Positions 8,353 to 19,150 of a stretch of DNA of 37,550 bases are shown here, piece after piece. Positions within the stretch are counted from its first letter, which is position 1, and each line of letters begins with the position of its first letter. The notes under the pieces are model-generated. The model saw nothing but the letters and a program-made list of their open reading frames with translations. It was not told the DNA's origin and made no database searches. The position numbers were made by a program, and so were the translations under genes. Source of the stretch: an uncultured Verrucomicrobiales bacterium (GTDB lineage Bacteria; Verrucomicrobiota; Verrucomicrobiia; Limisphaerales; UBA1100); the NCBI GenBank assembly GCA_913048135.1, contig CAJWVY010000011.1, forward strand, positions 1-37,550, given 5' to 3'.

Positions 8353-10156
8353 ATGTGGCCGCACTGATAGGCACTTTCGGTAGGACCTCTTGTTTTTGCC
8401 TCAACAACTCGCGCTGCTCTTCGAGCGTGCGCAAGAGTTCTTCCTCCGGCAGGTTTGGCTGCGCCAATAACCGGGTGAGACTAGCCAATTGCCGGTCGAG
8501 AAAACGATCGCGCAGGCGTGTCACCAAATCCTGTAGCTGCCGCGCCGGCTGAGGAATCTCCGTGGCGTCCGCCACTGCAGCGGTCAACAGTCGACTGGAA
8601 GGGGCATCCAGCGAACCTAGCAATATTTCGGCTGAATCACCAGTTTGCGCTGCCGATTCGAGAATGGCGCGGACCTGAGGATGCTCCACCCACCGTGGAT
8701 CCAGACAATCGGCTGCCCAATCTCCAAATGCCGAGTCCTGAAAAGCCAATCGCAACAACCATCGCTCCTGCTGTGTCGGCGGCGCAACCGCCGGTTCGGG
8801 CGACGAGTGCTCGGCCAGCATCGGTTCCGACCGATCATAGACTGCACTCGTTTTAGGTTGGGGAATCCTCTGAAATTCTGCCCGTACCGCTTCCGCCGAG
8901 GCTCCCACCGCCAGTGCGGTCTGTTGGGCGCACCGATCCAGCAACACCGCATCGCGCGTTTTACGCACCGCCAGCCCCATGGCTTGTGTAACCTCGCGCC
9001 GTCCGCGTTCACTTCGCACATCGTGCTCGATCAGAAGATGGTTGAGGTAAAAATCAAAATAATCCGGCGCCTGATCCATCATTTCACGGAACGCCACCAC
9101 CCCCTGCTCTCTAATGAAACTATCGGGGTCATGTGGTGCTGGCACCGTCATAACACGTACGGCCAATTCCGATTCCAGCAGGGCATCAAAGGATCGTACG
9201 GCCGCGTTTTGCCCGGCGGTATCCGAATCAAAACACAGCACTACCTCCGAGGTGTAGCGTTTCAGAATCCGCGCATGATCAGACGTGAGCGCCGTGCCTT
9301 GCGGCGCAACCGCTTGTTTCAAGCCCGCCATGTGGCAAGCCATAGTGTCGAGCTGTCCTTCACACACGAGCGCGGATTTCGCGGCCAGAATTTCCCGGCG
9401 TGCCTTGTCCAGTCCGTAGAAGACCTTGCTCTTGTGAAACAATAGTGTTTCTGGCGAGTTCACGTACTTCGCCGCTTTCACCTCCGAATCGAGCACTCGG
9501 CCACTGAAGCCAATCACTCGGCCCTGTTCATCATGGATGGGAAACATCAGCCGGTCACGAAACCGCCCATAACGTTTGCCATCCTTGTTGGCCACCAGTC
9601 CGGCTTCCTCCATCAACTCCAAGTCAAACTTCTGGGCCGCCGCCCAATTCACCGTGTCTTCCCATGATTCAGGGGCGTACCCCAACTGGAAAGTCTCCGC
9701 TGCGCCGCGGGTCATGCCGCGGGTTTTCAGATAATTTCGTGCCGGTTGGCCACCCGCCTCGTTCATCAACACGCCGTGCCAGCGTTTGGCCAACTCCGCG
9801 TGTACGTGCAACAACAAATCCTTCTTGCGCCGCGAACGCTCGGCCTGCGGGTTTTGATCAAATTCGAGAACGATCCCAGCACGTTCGGCCAGCCGTTCTA
9901 CAGCTTCAATGAATTCCACGTGCTCGTATTCCTGAACAAACTTAAAGACATCTCCACTCGCATGACACCCAAAGCAGTGATAGATTTGTCGCTGCGGATT
10001 GACGTTGAAGCTCGGACTATTCTCCTTATGAAACGGACATAAGGCCACGTGATTACCGCCGGCACGCTTGAGCGGAAAGTAGCTTCCAATCACCTCGACG
10101 ATATCACTCGCCGCCCGAATTTGCTCAATGGTAGACTGGGAGATTCGCCCCGCCAT
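8351..10156 (-). CDS. dnaG: DNA primase DnaG
   Basis: 601 residues, normal for bacterial primase, which synthesises RNA primers at the replication fork. The N-terminal CHC2 zinc-binding domain is complete: CPFH (C40, H43) and CFGC (C61, C64). The catalytic core follows with the TOPRIM motif VCEGQLDTMA and the acidic pair in VLCFDSDTAGQNAA. The C-terminal about 150 residues are helical and diverged, as expected for the helicase-binding domain. ATG 10156 begins MAGRISQSTIEQIRAASDIVEVIGSY, a typical primase start. It lies 4 bases after the TPR lipoprotein gene's stop, so the two are probably co-transcribed; rpoD is not next to it here, unlike in many bacteria. Confidence 0.96.
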   Translation of the reverse strand: MAGRISQSTIEQIRAASDIVEVIGSYFPLKRAGGNHVALCPFHKENSPSFNVNPQRQIYHCFGCHASGDVFKFVQEYEHVEFIEAVERLAERAGIVLEFDQNPQAERSRRKKDLLLHVHAELAKRWHGVLMNEAGGQPARNYLKTRGMTRGAAETFQLGYAPESWEDTVNWAAAQKFDLELMEEAGLVANKDGKRYGRFRDRLMFPIHDEQGRVIGFSGRVLDSEVKAAKYVNSPETLLFHKSKVFYGLDKARREILAAKSALVCEGQLDTMACHMAGLKQAVAPQGTALTSDHARILKRYTSEVVLCFDSDTAGQNAAVRSFDALLESELAVRVMTVPAPHDPDSFIREQGVVAFREMMDQAPDYFDFYLNHLLIEHDVRSERGRREVTQAMGLAVRKTRDAVLLDRCAQQTALAVGASAEAVRAEFQRIPQPKTSAVYDRSEPMLAEHSSPEPAVAPPTQQERWLLRLAFQDSAFGDWAADCLDPRWVEHPQVRAILESAAQTGDSAEILLGSLDAPSSRLLTAAVADATEIPQPARQLQDLVTRLRDRFLDRQLASLTRLLAQPNLPEEELLRTLEEQRELLRQKQEVLPKVPISAAT

Positions 10157-14529: not shown

Positions 14530-15591
14530 CTACCAACTTAAAGCGGATGCGGTCTGGTATTCGGTGACGCGCGTCTCGAAGAAGTTTTTCTCCTTGGCCA
14601 GATCGATGGTCTCGCTCATCCACGGGAAGGGATTGTCCGAGCCGTACTTGGTGCCCAAGCCGATGCGCTCGAGGCGGCGGTCGGCGATGTGTTGCACGTA
14701 TTCGCGGAAGAGACCAGCGTTGAGGCCGAGGATGCCACGCGGCAGGCAGTCCTGCGCGTAGGCAATCTCCAGCTCCACGGCTTCCTCGATGAGCCCGTCG
14801 ATTTCCTTCTGGAACTCAGGCGTCCAAGCCTCGGGATTCTCGGCCTTGATGCCGTTGATGAGGTCGAGGCCGAAGTTCATGTGGATGGATTCATCGCGCA
14901 TGATGTACTGGAACTGTTCGCCAATCCCGGTCATGCGGTTACCGCGATGGAAGGACAGGATCATCACGAAGCCTGAGTAGAAGAAAATGCCTTCCATGAT
15001 CACGTAGAACCCGATGAGGTTCTTGAGGAAGGTCTGAACCCCCTCAGTGGTGTCGGTGTTGAAGCCTTCCTGCATGATGTCGCTAGTGAGCTTCATTTCG
15101 AAGTTATCCTTATCGCTGATGGAATTCACCTCGTGATACATGTTGAATATCTCACGTTCATCAAGGCTGAGTGATTCGCAGATGTAATGGAAGGTGTGCG
15201 TGTGAATGGCTTCCTCAAAGGCCTGGCGCAGCAGGTACTGGCGGCACTCGGGGTTGGTCACGTGTTTGAAGATGGCGAGCACGATATTGTTGCCCACGAG
15301 GCTCTCAGCGGTGCTGAAGAAGCCGAGGTTGCGCATGATCACGCGACGCTCGTCGGCGGTAAGCTTGTTGGATTTCCATAGCTCAATATCCTTCTGCATC
15401 GGCACCTCGTCGGGCATCCAATGGTTTTTGCAGCCGTTGAGATAATGTTCCCAAGCCCAGTCATACTTGATGGGCATGAGCTGGTTGACATCCACGGCTT
15501 TACAGTTAATGAGCCGTTTGTCTTCCACGTTGATGCGCTTGGTGAGGTCATGGGCCTCCGGGCGCTGGTCGCTAACATTGCAACAAGACAT
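14530..15591 (-). CDS. nrdB: Ribonucleotide reductase small subunit, class Ic type (no radical tyrosine)
   Basis: 353 residues, start ATG 15591 with the strong ribosome site AAGGAGG 8 bases upstream. R2 carries the dimetal cofactor that starts the radical for NrdA. Candidate metal ligands are E96, E127, H130, E200, E234 and H237. The place of the radical tyrosine (E. coli Y122) is F134 in [17 protein letters not shown]. Every one of these positions is offset by +7 from Chlamydia trachomatis R2 (E89, E120, H123, F127, E193, E227, H230), the type enzyme of class Ic, which uses Mn(IV)/Fe(III) instead of a tyrosyl radical. The first ligand is Glu, as in class Ic, not Asp. The C-terminal tail ends in Tyr and Trp residues, as needed for docking to NrdA. 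It is in an operon with nrdA, 37 bases upstream. Confidence 0.96.
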
Positions 15592-15628: not shown

Positions 15629-18502
15629 TTACTGGCAGGCTTCGCACTCCGGGTCGAGGATACTGCAGGCCTTCGGCGCCTCGGCCACAGGGGCCACTTC
15701 GCTGGAGGCAGATTTGCTCTTCATCCACTTAGGCTGCACGCCGTAGCTGTTGATGTTCACGGTCGATTTCTCGATCTGCGTGGCAGCCAACGTGCGCAGG
15801 TAGTAGGTGGTTTTCAGCCCCGCTTCCCAGGCGAAGAAGTACATGTCACTCAGGACTCGACCGGTCTTCTGGCCTTCGGGCACCTGATTGATGTCAAAGT
15901 ATAGGTTCAGGGATTGGCCCATATCGATCCACTTTTGGCGACGGGCCGCGCAGGCGATCAGCCATTTGGAATCAATCTCGAATGAGGTTCGGAATACATC
16001 CTTCAGATCATCGGGCACCCGGTCGATCTCAAGTACCGAACCGTCGTGGTACTTGAGGTCCTGCACCATCTCGTCATCCCACAAGCCGCGTTCCTTGAGC
16101 TGGGTCACGAGGTACTCGTTGACCACGATGAAATCTCCGGAAAGATTCGCCTTGGCGTAGAGGTTCTTGTAGGTCGGCTCGATGGATTGGCTCACGCCGA
16201 TGATGTTGGCGATGGTTGCGGTGGGCGCAATGGCCATGGTGTTGCTATTGCGCACGCCGTGTTTGGCGATGGATTCGCGCACAGGCGCCCAGTCCATCTG
16301 CGAGCTGCGATCCAGCGTGAGATGCCCGCCACGCTCCTGTTCCAGCAGGTCGATGGTATCAATCGGCAGCAGGCCGCGATCCCATTTGGATCCCTCGTAG
16401 GTCTGGTAGGCGCCGCGCTCGGCCGCCAATTCGCTGGAGGCGAGGATGGCGTAGTAGGAGATCATCTCCATGCTGTGATCGGCAAACTCCACGGCTTCCT
16501 GGCTGGCGTAGGAAATGCGCAGTTGATAAAGCGCATCCTGAAAGGCCATCACGCCCATGCCCACCGGGCGATGCTGCATGTTCGCGTTGCGTGCCTCAGG
16601 TGTAGGGTAGTAGTTGATGTCGATCACATTGTCCAACATCCGGACAGCGGTACGGACGGTCTGGGCGATGAGTTCCTGATTGAGCGCGCCATCCTTAAGG
16701 TGGGCGGTGAGGTTCACGGAGCCGAGGTTGCACACGGCGGTTTCCTCGGCGCTGGTGTTGAGGAGAATCTCGGTGCAGAGATTGGAGCTGTGCACCACGC
16801 CCGTGTGATCCTGCGGCGAGCGGACATTGGAAGGATCCTTGAAAGTGATCCACGGATGGCCCGTCTCGAAGAGGCTCATCAGTATCTTGCGCCAGAGATC
16901 CTCGGCTTCCACAGTCTTGAAGAGCTTAATCTCGCCCGCTTCGGCCATGGTCTCGTATTCCTCGTAGCGTTTCTCGAACGCCGCGCCGTAGAGATCGTGC
17001 AGATCCTCCACATCGCTCGGACTGAAGAGGGTCCACTTACCCTTCTCCTTCACACGCTTCATGAATAGGTCCGGTATCCAATTGGCGGTATTCATGTCGT
17101 GCGTGCGGCGGCGTTCGTCACCGGTGTTCTTGCGCAGCTCCATGAAGTCCTCGATATCGAGGTGCCACGTTTCGAGATACGCGCACATGGCGCCTTTGCG
17201 TTTGCCGCCCTGATTCACGGCCACCGCAGTATCATTGGCCACCTTTAGGAACGGAATGACGCCCTGGCTTTCGCCGTTGGTGCCCTTGATATGCGATCCA
17301 GTGGCGCGAACATTGGTCCAGTCATTGCCCAAACCGCCGGCCCATTTGGACAAGCGCGCGTCATCGGCCACCAGCTTGAAGATACTCTCGAGATCGTCAT
17401 CCACCGTGCTCAGGTAGCAGGAGGAAAGCTGCGGATGCAGCGTGCCTGCGTTGAAGAGCGTGGGCGTAGAGGACATAAACCGAAAAGAGCTGAGCGCATT
17501 GTAAAACTCAATCGCACGCTCCTCCTTGTTGGCTTCATTAGCCGCCAAGCCCATGGACACGCGCATGTAGAAATACTGCGGTGTCTCAATGCGGGTGCCG
17601 CCGATGTGAATGAGGTAGCGATCGTAAATCGTCTGGATTCCCATGTAGGCAAACTGCTGATCCCGCTCCAGATCGAGGGCGTCGGCCAGTTGATCGAGGT
17701 CGAACTTCAACAGATCCGGCGACAGACGCTCGGCGGCCACACCCTGCTGCAGGTACTCGCGGAAATGTTCGCGGTGCACCTTGGGCAACTCGGCCGGTGC
17801 ACCGAACTTCGGCAGCACTTCCTCATAAATCTGATTCAGTAAAAGCCGCGCGGCCACATAGGTGTAGGCCGGCTCATTCTCAATCCGAGCTTTAGCAGAC
17901 ATGATCATCGCCTTGTCTACCTCGGTGGTAGTCACACCGTCGTAGAGGTTGCGCATGGTCTCATCGAAGAGATCATTGGCCTGGCACTTGTCCTCCACGC
18001 CGCGGCAGGCGCCATAGATATCACGCTTGAGCCGACCGGGATCGAGCACCTCCTGTCCGCCGTCCGGCAGGGTGATGAACATCTGCTCCTGCGGCTGGCC
18101 GTCCACCGTGCGATCCCCGCGAATGGCGCGCGCCTTGCGACGTTCTTCGCGGTAGACAATGTAACGCCGTGCTGCACCGCGGAAGCCCATCTCCATGAGC
18201 TTGTCCTCCACCGTGTCCTGAATGCGTTCGATCTCGATGGGCGCTTCGTCAGTGGCGCGACTGAGACTTTTTTCCACCACCGCCTGCGTGAGGCGTTGGG
18301 CGTCGGCCTGCATGGTTTCGTTGGCCGGCGTGTCCTGGTCGAGTTCCGCGTCGGCCTTCAAGGCCGCCTCGATGGCGAGATAAATTCGCGTTTCATCAAA
18401 GTCGATGATGTTCCCGTTTCGTTTCCGAACTTGGAACTGTTTGCCTTCGAGGGGGTCCAAGGTGGCCATCCGCAATTGGCCATCGAGCTGCTCATTAATC
18501 AT
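15629..18502 (-). CDS. nrdA: Ribonucleoside-diphosphate reductase large subunit
   Basis: 957 residues from ATG 18502, preceded by GGAGAAAG; the longer ORF start has no support. The enzyme reduces NDPs to dNDPs. The N-terminal about 100 residues form an ATP-cone ([22 protein letters not shown] to [14 protein letters not shown]), the dATP feedback site. The RNR N-terminal helical domain follows, then the ten-stranded barrel: redox cysteine in [14 protein letters not shown], catalytic SSNLCTEI (Asn, thiyl Cys, Glu), second redox cysteine in [10 protein letters not shown], and the radical-transfer region near [19 protein letters not shown]. The C-terminal tail ends CEACQ, the shuttle dithiol. It is the first gene of nrdA-nrdB; the 670-base upstream region holds candidate regulatory sites. 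Confidence 0.97.
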
Positions 18503-18770
18503 GGATATCTTTCTCCGTCTTCTTTCCGTGCGACACGCCACGCCGCGATTCATCAGTAGACAACACAAGCCGGTGCAAGGTTGCCCGTAGTAGGTTCAGG
18601 TTGGGTTAAACCGTTCCCGCTGCCGTGGCCCGGCAGCAGCCCGCACGCCCGTGCGGGGCTCGTTGACAGCCCAACTCGTACGTTACCCGCCCGCGAGACG
18701 GTTCACATTCGAGTTGGGTCCAAAACAGCCTCATTTTTCCGTAAAAACAGGTCGTTATTCACAGAAGCCG

Positions 18771-18784
18771 CACAACCTGTTGTG
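18771..18784. promoter_or_regulatory. Candidate NrdR box, copy 1
   Basis: CACAACCTGTTGTG is a near-perfect palindrome (CACAAC/GTTGTG around CT). It fits the CACAA-N4-TTGTG core seen in many NrdR operators, and it lies upstream of nrdA, the classic NrdR target. Confidence 0.4.
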
Positions 18785-18805
18785 GAGCTTATTTACCAGG
18801 GTATC

Positions 18806-18819
18806 CACAACCTGTGGTG
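18806..18819. promoter_or_regulatory. Candidate NrdR box, copy 2
   Basis: CACAACCTGTGGTG differs from copy 1 at one base and begins 35 bases after it, in the same orientation. Paired boxes about three helical turns apart are usual for NrdR; 35 is slightly longer than the common 31-33. It overlaps a DnaA-like site at 18801-18809. Confidence 0.38.
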
Positions 18820-18841
18820 TGACCTCTCGATCAACTGCGCG

Positions 18842-18871
18842 ATATATTGGGGTATCTGAAAAAAGAGTCAA
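18842..18871 (-). promoter_or_regulatory. Possible nrdA promoter
   Basis: On the minus strand TTGACT (18871-18866) is followed 17-19 bases later by the AT-rich AATATATC (TATATC with a 19-base spacer). The -10 match is poor, so this is tentative. If right, the two NrdR-like palindromes lie just downstream of the start site. Confidence 0.35.
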
Positions 18872-18939
18872 CACCTTTCATGTTAAAATGTGAATAAACG
18901 CAGCCCCAAAAACGTACTATTGTCATAATACCCCTGTAT

Positions 18940-18968
18940 TTGACACCGATTCGTCACAAAATAATAAT
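18940..18968 (+). promoter_or_regulatory. Strong sigma70-like promoter on the plus strand with no gene downstream
   Basis: TTGACA, a 17-base spacer, then AATAAT: eleven of twelve consensus positions, the best promoter match I found in the window. It points right, away from nrdA, toward the convergent end of the cytochrome b gene 200 bases away. Two DnaA-like sites lie at its -10 and just after it. Confidence 0.5.
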
Positions 18969-19112
18969 TCACACCCTAGTATTCACACCAAATACCACTT
19001 TGCCGGAGTGATTTAGGTGAATAGCTGCATAAACAGGCGTTTTTAGCCTTTCGCCTGTGGGCAAGTCCGGAATTAGCCGATTTTATCGCCAATTGCCCCC
19101 TTCGCAGGCGCC

Positions 19113-19150
19113 AAAAAAACTCCCCGACCAGCCTCAAGCCAATCGGGGAG
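19113..19150 (-). terminator. Rho-independent terminator after the cytochrome b-c-c gene
   Basis: On the minus strand CTCCCCGA pairs with TCGGGGAG (8 bp, 15-base loop) and is followed by seven T. It ends the Rieske-cytochrome b transcript. Confidence 0.85.

Follow-up and report, generated by a model that had tools for sequence, protein, structure and literature searches.

The window analysed here (the whole stretch of 37,550 nucleotides) is contig C11 of a MAG of an uncultured Verrucomicrobiales bacterium, which comprises 2.94 Mb in 207 contigs and is 95.5% complete. Its minus strand carries nrdA and nrdB, encoding the large and small subunits of a class I ribonucleotide reductase, and a dCTP-deaminase-like gene, all three of which lie downstream of a cluster of DnaA-box-like sites (Table 1). 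The likely start of nrdA is the ATG at 18502-18500, with a GGAG upstream; the possible extension of the open reading frame back to 18568 is assigned to the leader because in-frame stops interrupt it in several relatives. The intergenic region before nrdA, of approximately 670 bases, serves this gene; the upstream cytochrome b operon ends at a terminator-like hairpin and T-run, and positions 18503-19112 therefore belong to nrdA. A preliminary description of this DNA had called the stretch bearing the sites AT-rich and free of ORFs; it is AT-rich (42% GC compared with roughly 55% for the contig) and intergenic, but short GTG/TTG ORFs overlap it.

Table 1. Genes and predicted regulatory features of the nrdAB locus (identity refers to the family alignment).
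Feature	Position	Strand	Remarks
nrdB, small subunit	14530-15591	-	Pfam Ribonuc_red_sm, E=2e-92
nrdA, class I ribonucleotide reductase large subunit	15629-18502	-	Pfam Ribonuc_red_lgC, E=4e-194; ATP-cone, lgN
Small hairpin GCGG..TGGC..CCGC	18530-18546	-	Just before start codon; also in order-level relatives
Three leader hairpins	18599-18657 (18640-18657, 18617-18639, 18599-18612)	-	Covariation
DnaA box (predicted) TTATTCACA, exact	18755-18763	+	5' leader, downstream of NrdR operator; identity 0.99
DnaA-like site GTATCCACA, one mismatch	18801-18809	+	Overlaps NrdR box 2 by 5 bp; ambiguous; identity 0.88
NrdR box 2 (predicted) ACACCACAGGTTGTGG	18805-18820	-	16 bp from box 1; 11-13/16 in family
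NrdR box 1 (predicted) CCCCAATATATCGCGC	18837-18852	-	Matches ACACWATATATWGTGT at 11/16; core nearly unchanged across 16 genomes
Candidate -10 region AATATATC	18841-18848	-	Inside NrdR box 1; 17-19 from -35; almost invariant
Candidate -35 hexamer TTGACT	18866-18871	-	TTGAC kept throughout the family apart from G010
DnaA box (predicted) TTATTCACA, exact	18889-18897	-	17 bp upstream of -35; mean column identity 0.91
DnaA box (predicted) TAATTCACA, one mismatch	18965-18973	+	Identity 0.93
DnaA box (predicted) GTATTCACA, one mismatch	18979-18987	+	Identity 0.82
Terminator-like hairpin and T-run	19113-19150	-	End of upstream cytochrome b operon; from sequence

All five of the DnaA-box-like sites reported in the preliminary description, two exact and three one-mismatch matches to TTATNCACA between 18755 and 18987, were present, but the overlap of the site at 18801 with an NrdR box had been missed. 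This site is ambiguous because five of its bases are common to NrdR box 2; its conservation is not creditable to DnaA alone, and it may not be a DnaA site. The sites at 18965 and 18979 have the same orientation and, at 5 bp from one another, form the closest pair in the cluster. Dinucleotide shuffling of positions 18750-18990 (3000 shuffles) gave means of 0.024 exact sites (the earlier rough expectation was about 0.02) and, when one mismatch was permitted, 0.43 sites, so that the cluster is far beyond chance; two exact sites were reached in none of the 3000 shuffles and five sites in one. The exact TTATNCACA 9-mer occurs 51 times genome-wide (2.94 Mb) compared to 20 times for the reversed control. 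When mismatches were allowed and box density was scanned in 240-bp stretches over 80 contigs of the same genome (1.84 Mb, 62%), the nrdA cluster was the densest, with a score of 7 (next best 5).

A predicted NrdR operator, omitted from the preliminary description, forms the core of the region, with its first box on the candidate -10. In the family alignment the candidate -35 hexamer is followed by the nearly invariant ACCCCAATATATCGCGCAGT, and the two NrdR boxes consist of the core of ACCCCAATATATCGCGCAGT and the motif ACAC(A/T/C)ACA(G/A)(G/C)TTGTGG. The spacer between the boxes is 16 bp in every family member scored, in keeping with a published spacer of 15-16 bp (PMC12051234) and the same two-box geometry elsewhere (PMC12176259), and the pair scored 22/32 in the window and 22-24/32 across the family. 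The arrangement is thus that of NrdR operators of bacterial RNR operons, with two 16-bp boxes, a 16-bp spacer, box 1 over the -10 region and nrdR present, except that the right half of box 1 has diverged (CGCG rather than GTGT) and is almost invariant in the family in this form. The nrdR gene is encoded in the same genome (TIGR00244, 180.8 bits on C71, cut-off 124.65) and passed this threshold in 17 of the 20 family genomes, this one included. NrdR pairs are rare: at the threshold used, three were found in 1.84 Mb, namely at nrdA, at gyrB and inside a coding sequence, the last of which is probably due to chance. A dnaA gene with a standard box-binding motif (GGRDHGTVLHA) is also present. Wherever dnaA was identified in the family, the genome gave just one match to the DnaA AAA+ model, so that no Hda-like paralogue was detected.

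The region upstream of nrdA was aligned for 16 genomes of this family, of which three contributed partial sequence. Among all intergenic 9-mers (mean identity 0.71), TTATTCACA at 18755 ranked first for conservation and the core of NrdR box 1 next, while the boxes at 18889 and 18965 were in the top 5-6%, the site at 18801 in the top 9% and that at 18979 in the top 20%. Most of what is conserved in the intergenic region corresponds to the NrdR and DnaA boxes. Conservation in relatives, which had been proposed as a check on the cluster, was borne out for the four sites other than 18801, which most family members retain in the same place and orientation; the box at 18889 is conserved with mild variants (TTATCCACA, TTGTTCACA or TTATTAACA) and that at 18979 is kept as (C/G/A)TATTCACA in most members. 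The most divergent member, G010, has no exact box.

The promoter of gyrB (named by eye from sequence) was compared across family genomes and appears to follow the same design as that of nrdA, a DnaA box beside an NrdR pair. In the genome of the window the NrdR pair abuts an exact TTATTCACA (C6:19431-19487, locus L177); the DnaA box is exact in 12 of 17 family genomes and has one mismatch in a further 4, and the mean score of the NrdR pair was 22.0 compared to 15.9 in shuffles (16 family genomes). The topoisomerase reported among known NrdR targets is topA of P. aeruginosa (PMC4409342), whereas the second operator here is at gyrB; no paper joining NrdR, the NrdR box and gyrB was found in the literature searched, an absence which is not proof of novelty. 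At the dnaN promoter a motif, TTAT(T/C)CAC(A/G), is conserved in most members (C53, approximately 9600-9615, locus L235, with dnaN at 9665) and may overlap the -10 element; five one-mismatch sites lie at C53 9489-9712.

On these grounds the region is probably the control region of nrdAB with dual input from DnaA and NrdR, as in E. coli, where both proteins bind the nrdAB promoter (PMC12176259, PMC8203912, PMC11317965). The earlier suggestion of a DnaA-controlled nrd promoter is supported by the conserved position and orientation of the sites, by the predicted promoter and NrdR operator lying between them and by the parallel site at gyrB, and binding of DnaA at the nrdA promoter is very likely on this sequence evidence. 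Weighing against dual input, only two of the five sites are exact, one of the three with a single mismatch overlaps NrdR box 2, the closest pair is spaced more widely (5 bp) than E. coli DnaA prefers in vivo, and G010 lacks an exact box. Regulation of nrdAB by DnaA has been dissected in E. coli and suggested for Caulobacter (PMC8203912); NrdR with dATP is established as a repressor, and E. coli nrdAB is repressed by high DnaA-ATP and activated by low occupancy or DnaA-ADP (PMC8203912). By analogy, the same logic would presumably hold in this Verrucomicrobiota family. The binding of DnaA and of NrdR, the sign of each effect and its nucleotide dependence are what we infer in the following scheme. 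When dNTPs are ample, NrdR with ATP and dATP would occupy both boxes over the -10 region and block the promoter, while DnaA would occupy sites on either side of the NrdR operator. At low DnaA occupancy the box lying 17 bp before the -35 hexamer, together with the upstream pair, could aid RNA polymerase; at high DnaA-ATP the leader box, and possibly also the box overlapping NrdR box 2, would impede transcription. Supply of dNTPs would thereby be linked to the state of replication initiation.

The locus shares with E. coli nrdAB a class I operon, DnaA boxes beside the promoter and an NrdR pair with a 15-16 bp spacer (PMC8203912, PMC12176259, PMC11317965). It differs in that boxes flank the operator on both sides, transcribed leader included, in that one DnaA-like site overlaps NrdR box 2, in its long and structured leader and in having one protein that matches the DnaA AAA+ family, with no Hda-like paralogue found. 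In vivo, DnaA of E. coli prefers boxes 2-3 bp apart (PMC11317965), which is not a universal requirement, whereas the closest pair here is separated by 5 bp. At gammaproteobacterial loci with an exact box, the box mostly lies upstream of the best-scoring NrdR pair; single TTATCCACA sites are often upstream of the best NrdR pair, consistent with E. coli.

An alternative is that NrdR alone controls the promoter and that the DnaA-like sites are remnants or are recognised by a different regulator whose site resembles TGTGAATA. The overlap of one site with NrdR box 2 fits this, as does the fact that nrdA orthologues outside the family manage without the boxes, and DnaA binding is itself a prediction; we nevertheless consider it unlikely, given that TTATTCACA at 18755 and 18889 is conserved and separate from the NrdR boxes, that the same 9-mer recurs before gyrB and, in variant form, at the promoter of dnaN, both genes acting in replication, and that TTATNCACA is over-represented genome-wide. 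The cluster could also act mainly as a reservoir or reactivation site for DnaA (datA- or DARS-like) that lies at nrdA by chance; E. coli uses such sites (PMC11317965), and several boxes are present here, some of them beyond the core promoter. Instead, the constant placement of the boxes with respect to the promoter in most family members, and the recurrence of a box at gyrB, point to gene control, which makes a reservoir improbable.

The preliminary description had further raised the possibility that the cluster is oriC itself, in a genome where dnaA is elsewhere, and this was not supported. GC skew, named there as a check, falls steadily across the window with no inflection at nrdA, and it rises steadily over the 190-kb contig of a relative (G017) in which nrdA lies mid-contig on the other strand, again with no inflection. 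Nor was an inflection observed on the dnaA contig or on the dnaN contig, neither of which is supported as the origin. Although the cluster is the densest found in the 1.84 Mb scanned, lies in an AT-rich stretch and has no comparable counterpart near dnaA, its boxes are laid out around a conserved promoter and NrdR operator and the cluster follows nrdA, so that a chromosomal origin at this position, apart from dnaA, is very improbable. The cluster is real and conserved, and of the two earlier readings that of a promoter is supported and that of an origin is not.

The leader of nrdA contains four helices, in which 99.1% of cells were paired and 22 double-sided changes were counted compared to 5.9 in shuffles. 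By eye, the family leader hairpins resemble the part of cobalamin-riboswitch nrdAB leaders that lies downstream of the aptamer; unlike in those leaders, no cobalamin aptamer was found in the family where one was looked for (the window and locus L033), and a search of the window leader against Rfam was negative up to E=10. Nor did any of the 20 family genomes give a class II reductase match above cut-off, nearly all matches being nrdA itself. Although several of these genomes are incomplete, class II is likewise absent from the 10 with a completeness of at least 90%. Among order-level relatives the exact DnaA box was absent before orthologous nrdA in G026, G057, G043, G033, G035, L034 and L035, while a cobalamin riboswitch lies between NrdR-type boxes and nrdA in 6 of 7 (not found in G026), and the riboswitch-bearing G057, G043, G033 and G035 have class II reductase matches apart from nrdA. 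The family has the DnaA boxes but neither riboswitch nor class II, whereas the relatives lack these boxes and mostly carry both of the others; gain of the DnaA boxes therefore coincides with loss of B12-dependent control. The riboswitch was seen in the nrdA leaders of order-level loci L016, L017, L018, L023, L034 and L035; a second, weaker match was noted further downstream in L016 (4397-4622) and L034 (6900-7071), at the 3' end of nrdA or immediately beyond it.

Any order between box gain and loss of B12 control is one that we infer. Tentatively, class II and the B12 riboswitch may have been lost and nrdAB then rewired to DnaA, and DnaA and NrdR might form a small regulon (nrdAB and gyrB, with DnaA alone at dnaN) by which dNTP supply, supercoiling and the clamp are all coupled to initiation in the absence of Hda; we regard this as possible rather than probable. 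A 2025 review asks how dNTP synthesis and initiation are coordinated in species without Hda (PMC11853086). The present family, with conserved DnaA boxes beside NrdR operators at nrdAB and gyrB and a single DnaA AAA+ match, is a concrete and testable case, and the contrast with its riboswitch-bearing relatives suggests a route of regulatory replacement. Such a system has a precedent in E. coli; within the reach of the searches made, the lineage, the layout, the gyrB parallel and the riboswitch contrast are new.

Other small clusters of DnaA boxes were observed in the genome of the window at C44:1581-1609, C35:5524-5627, C5:22305-22466, C6:30826-30954 and C27:798-957, two of which adjoin Ser/Thr kinase-like genes (by eye). 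In G017, the interval C8:165424-165559 (L127-L136 joined), upstream of a small putative lipoprotein gene, contains two one-mismatch sites and two exact TTATTCACA sites whose starts are 11 bp apart.
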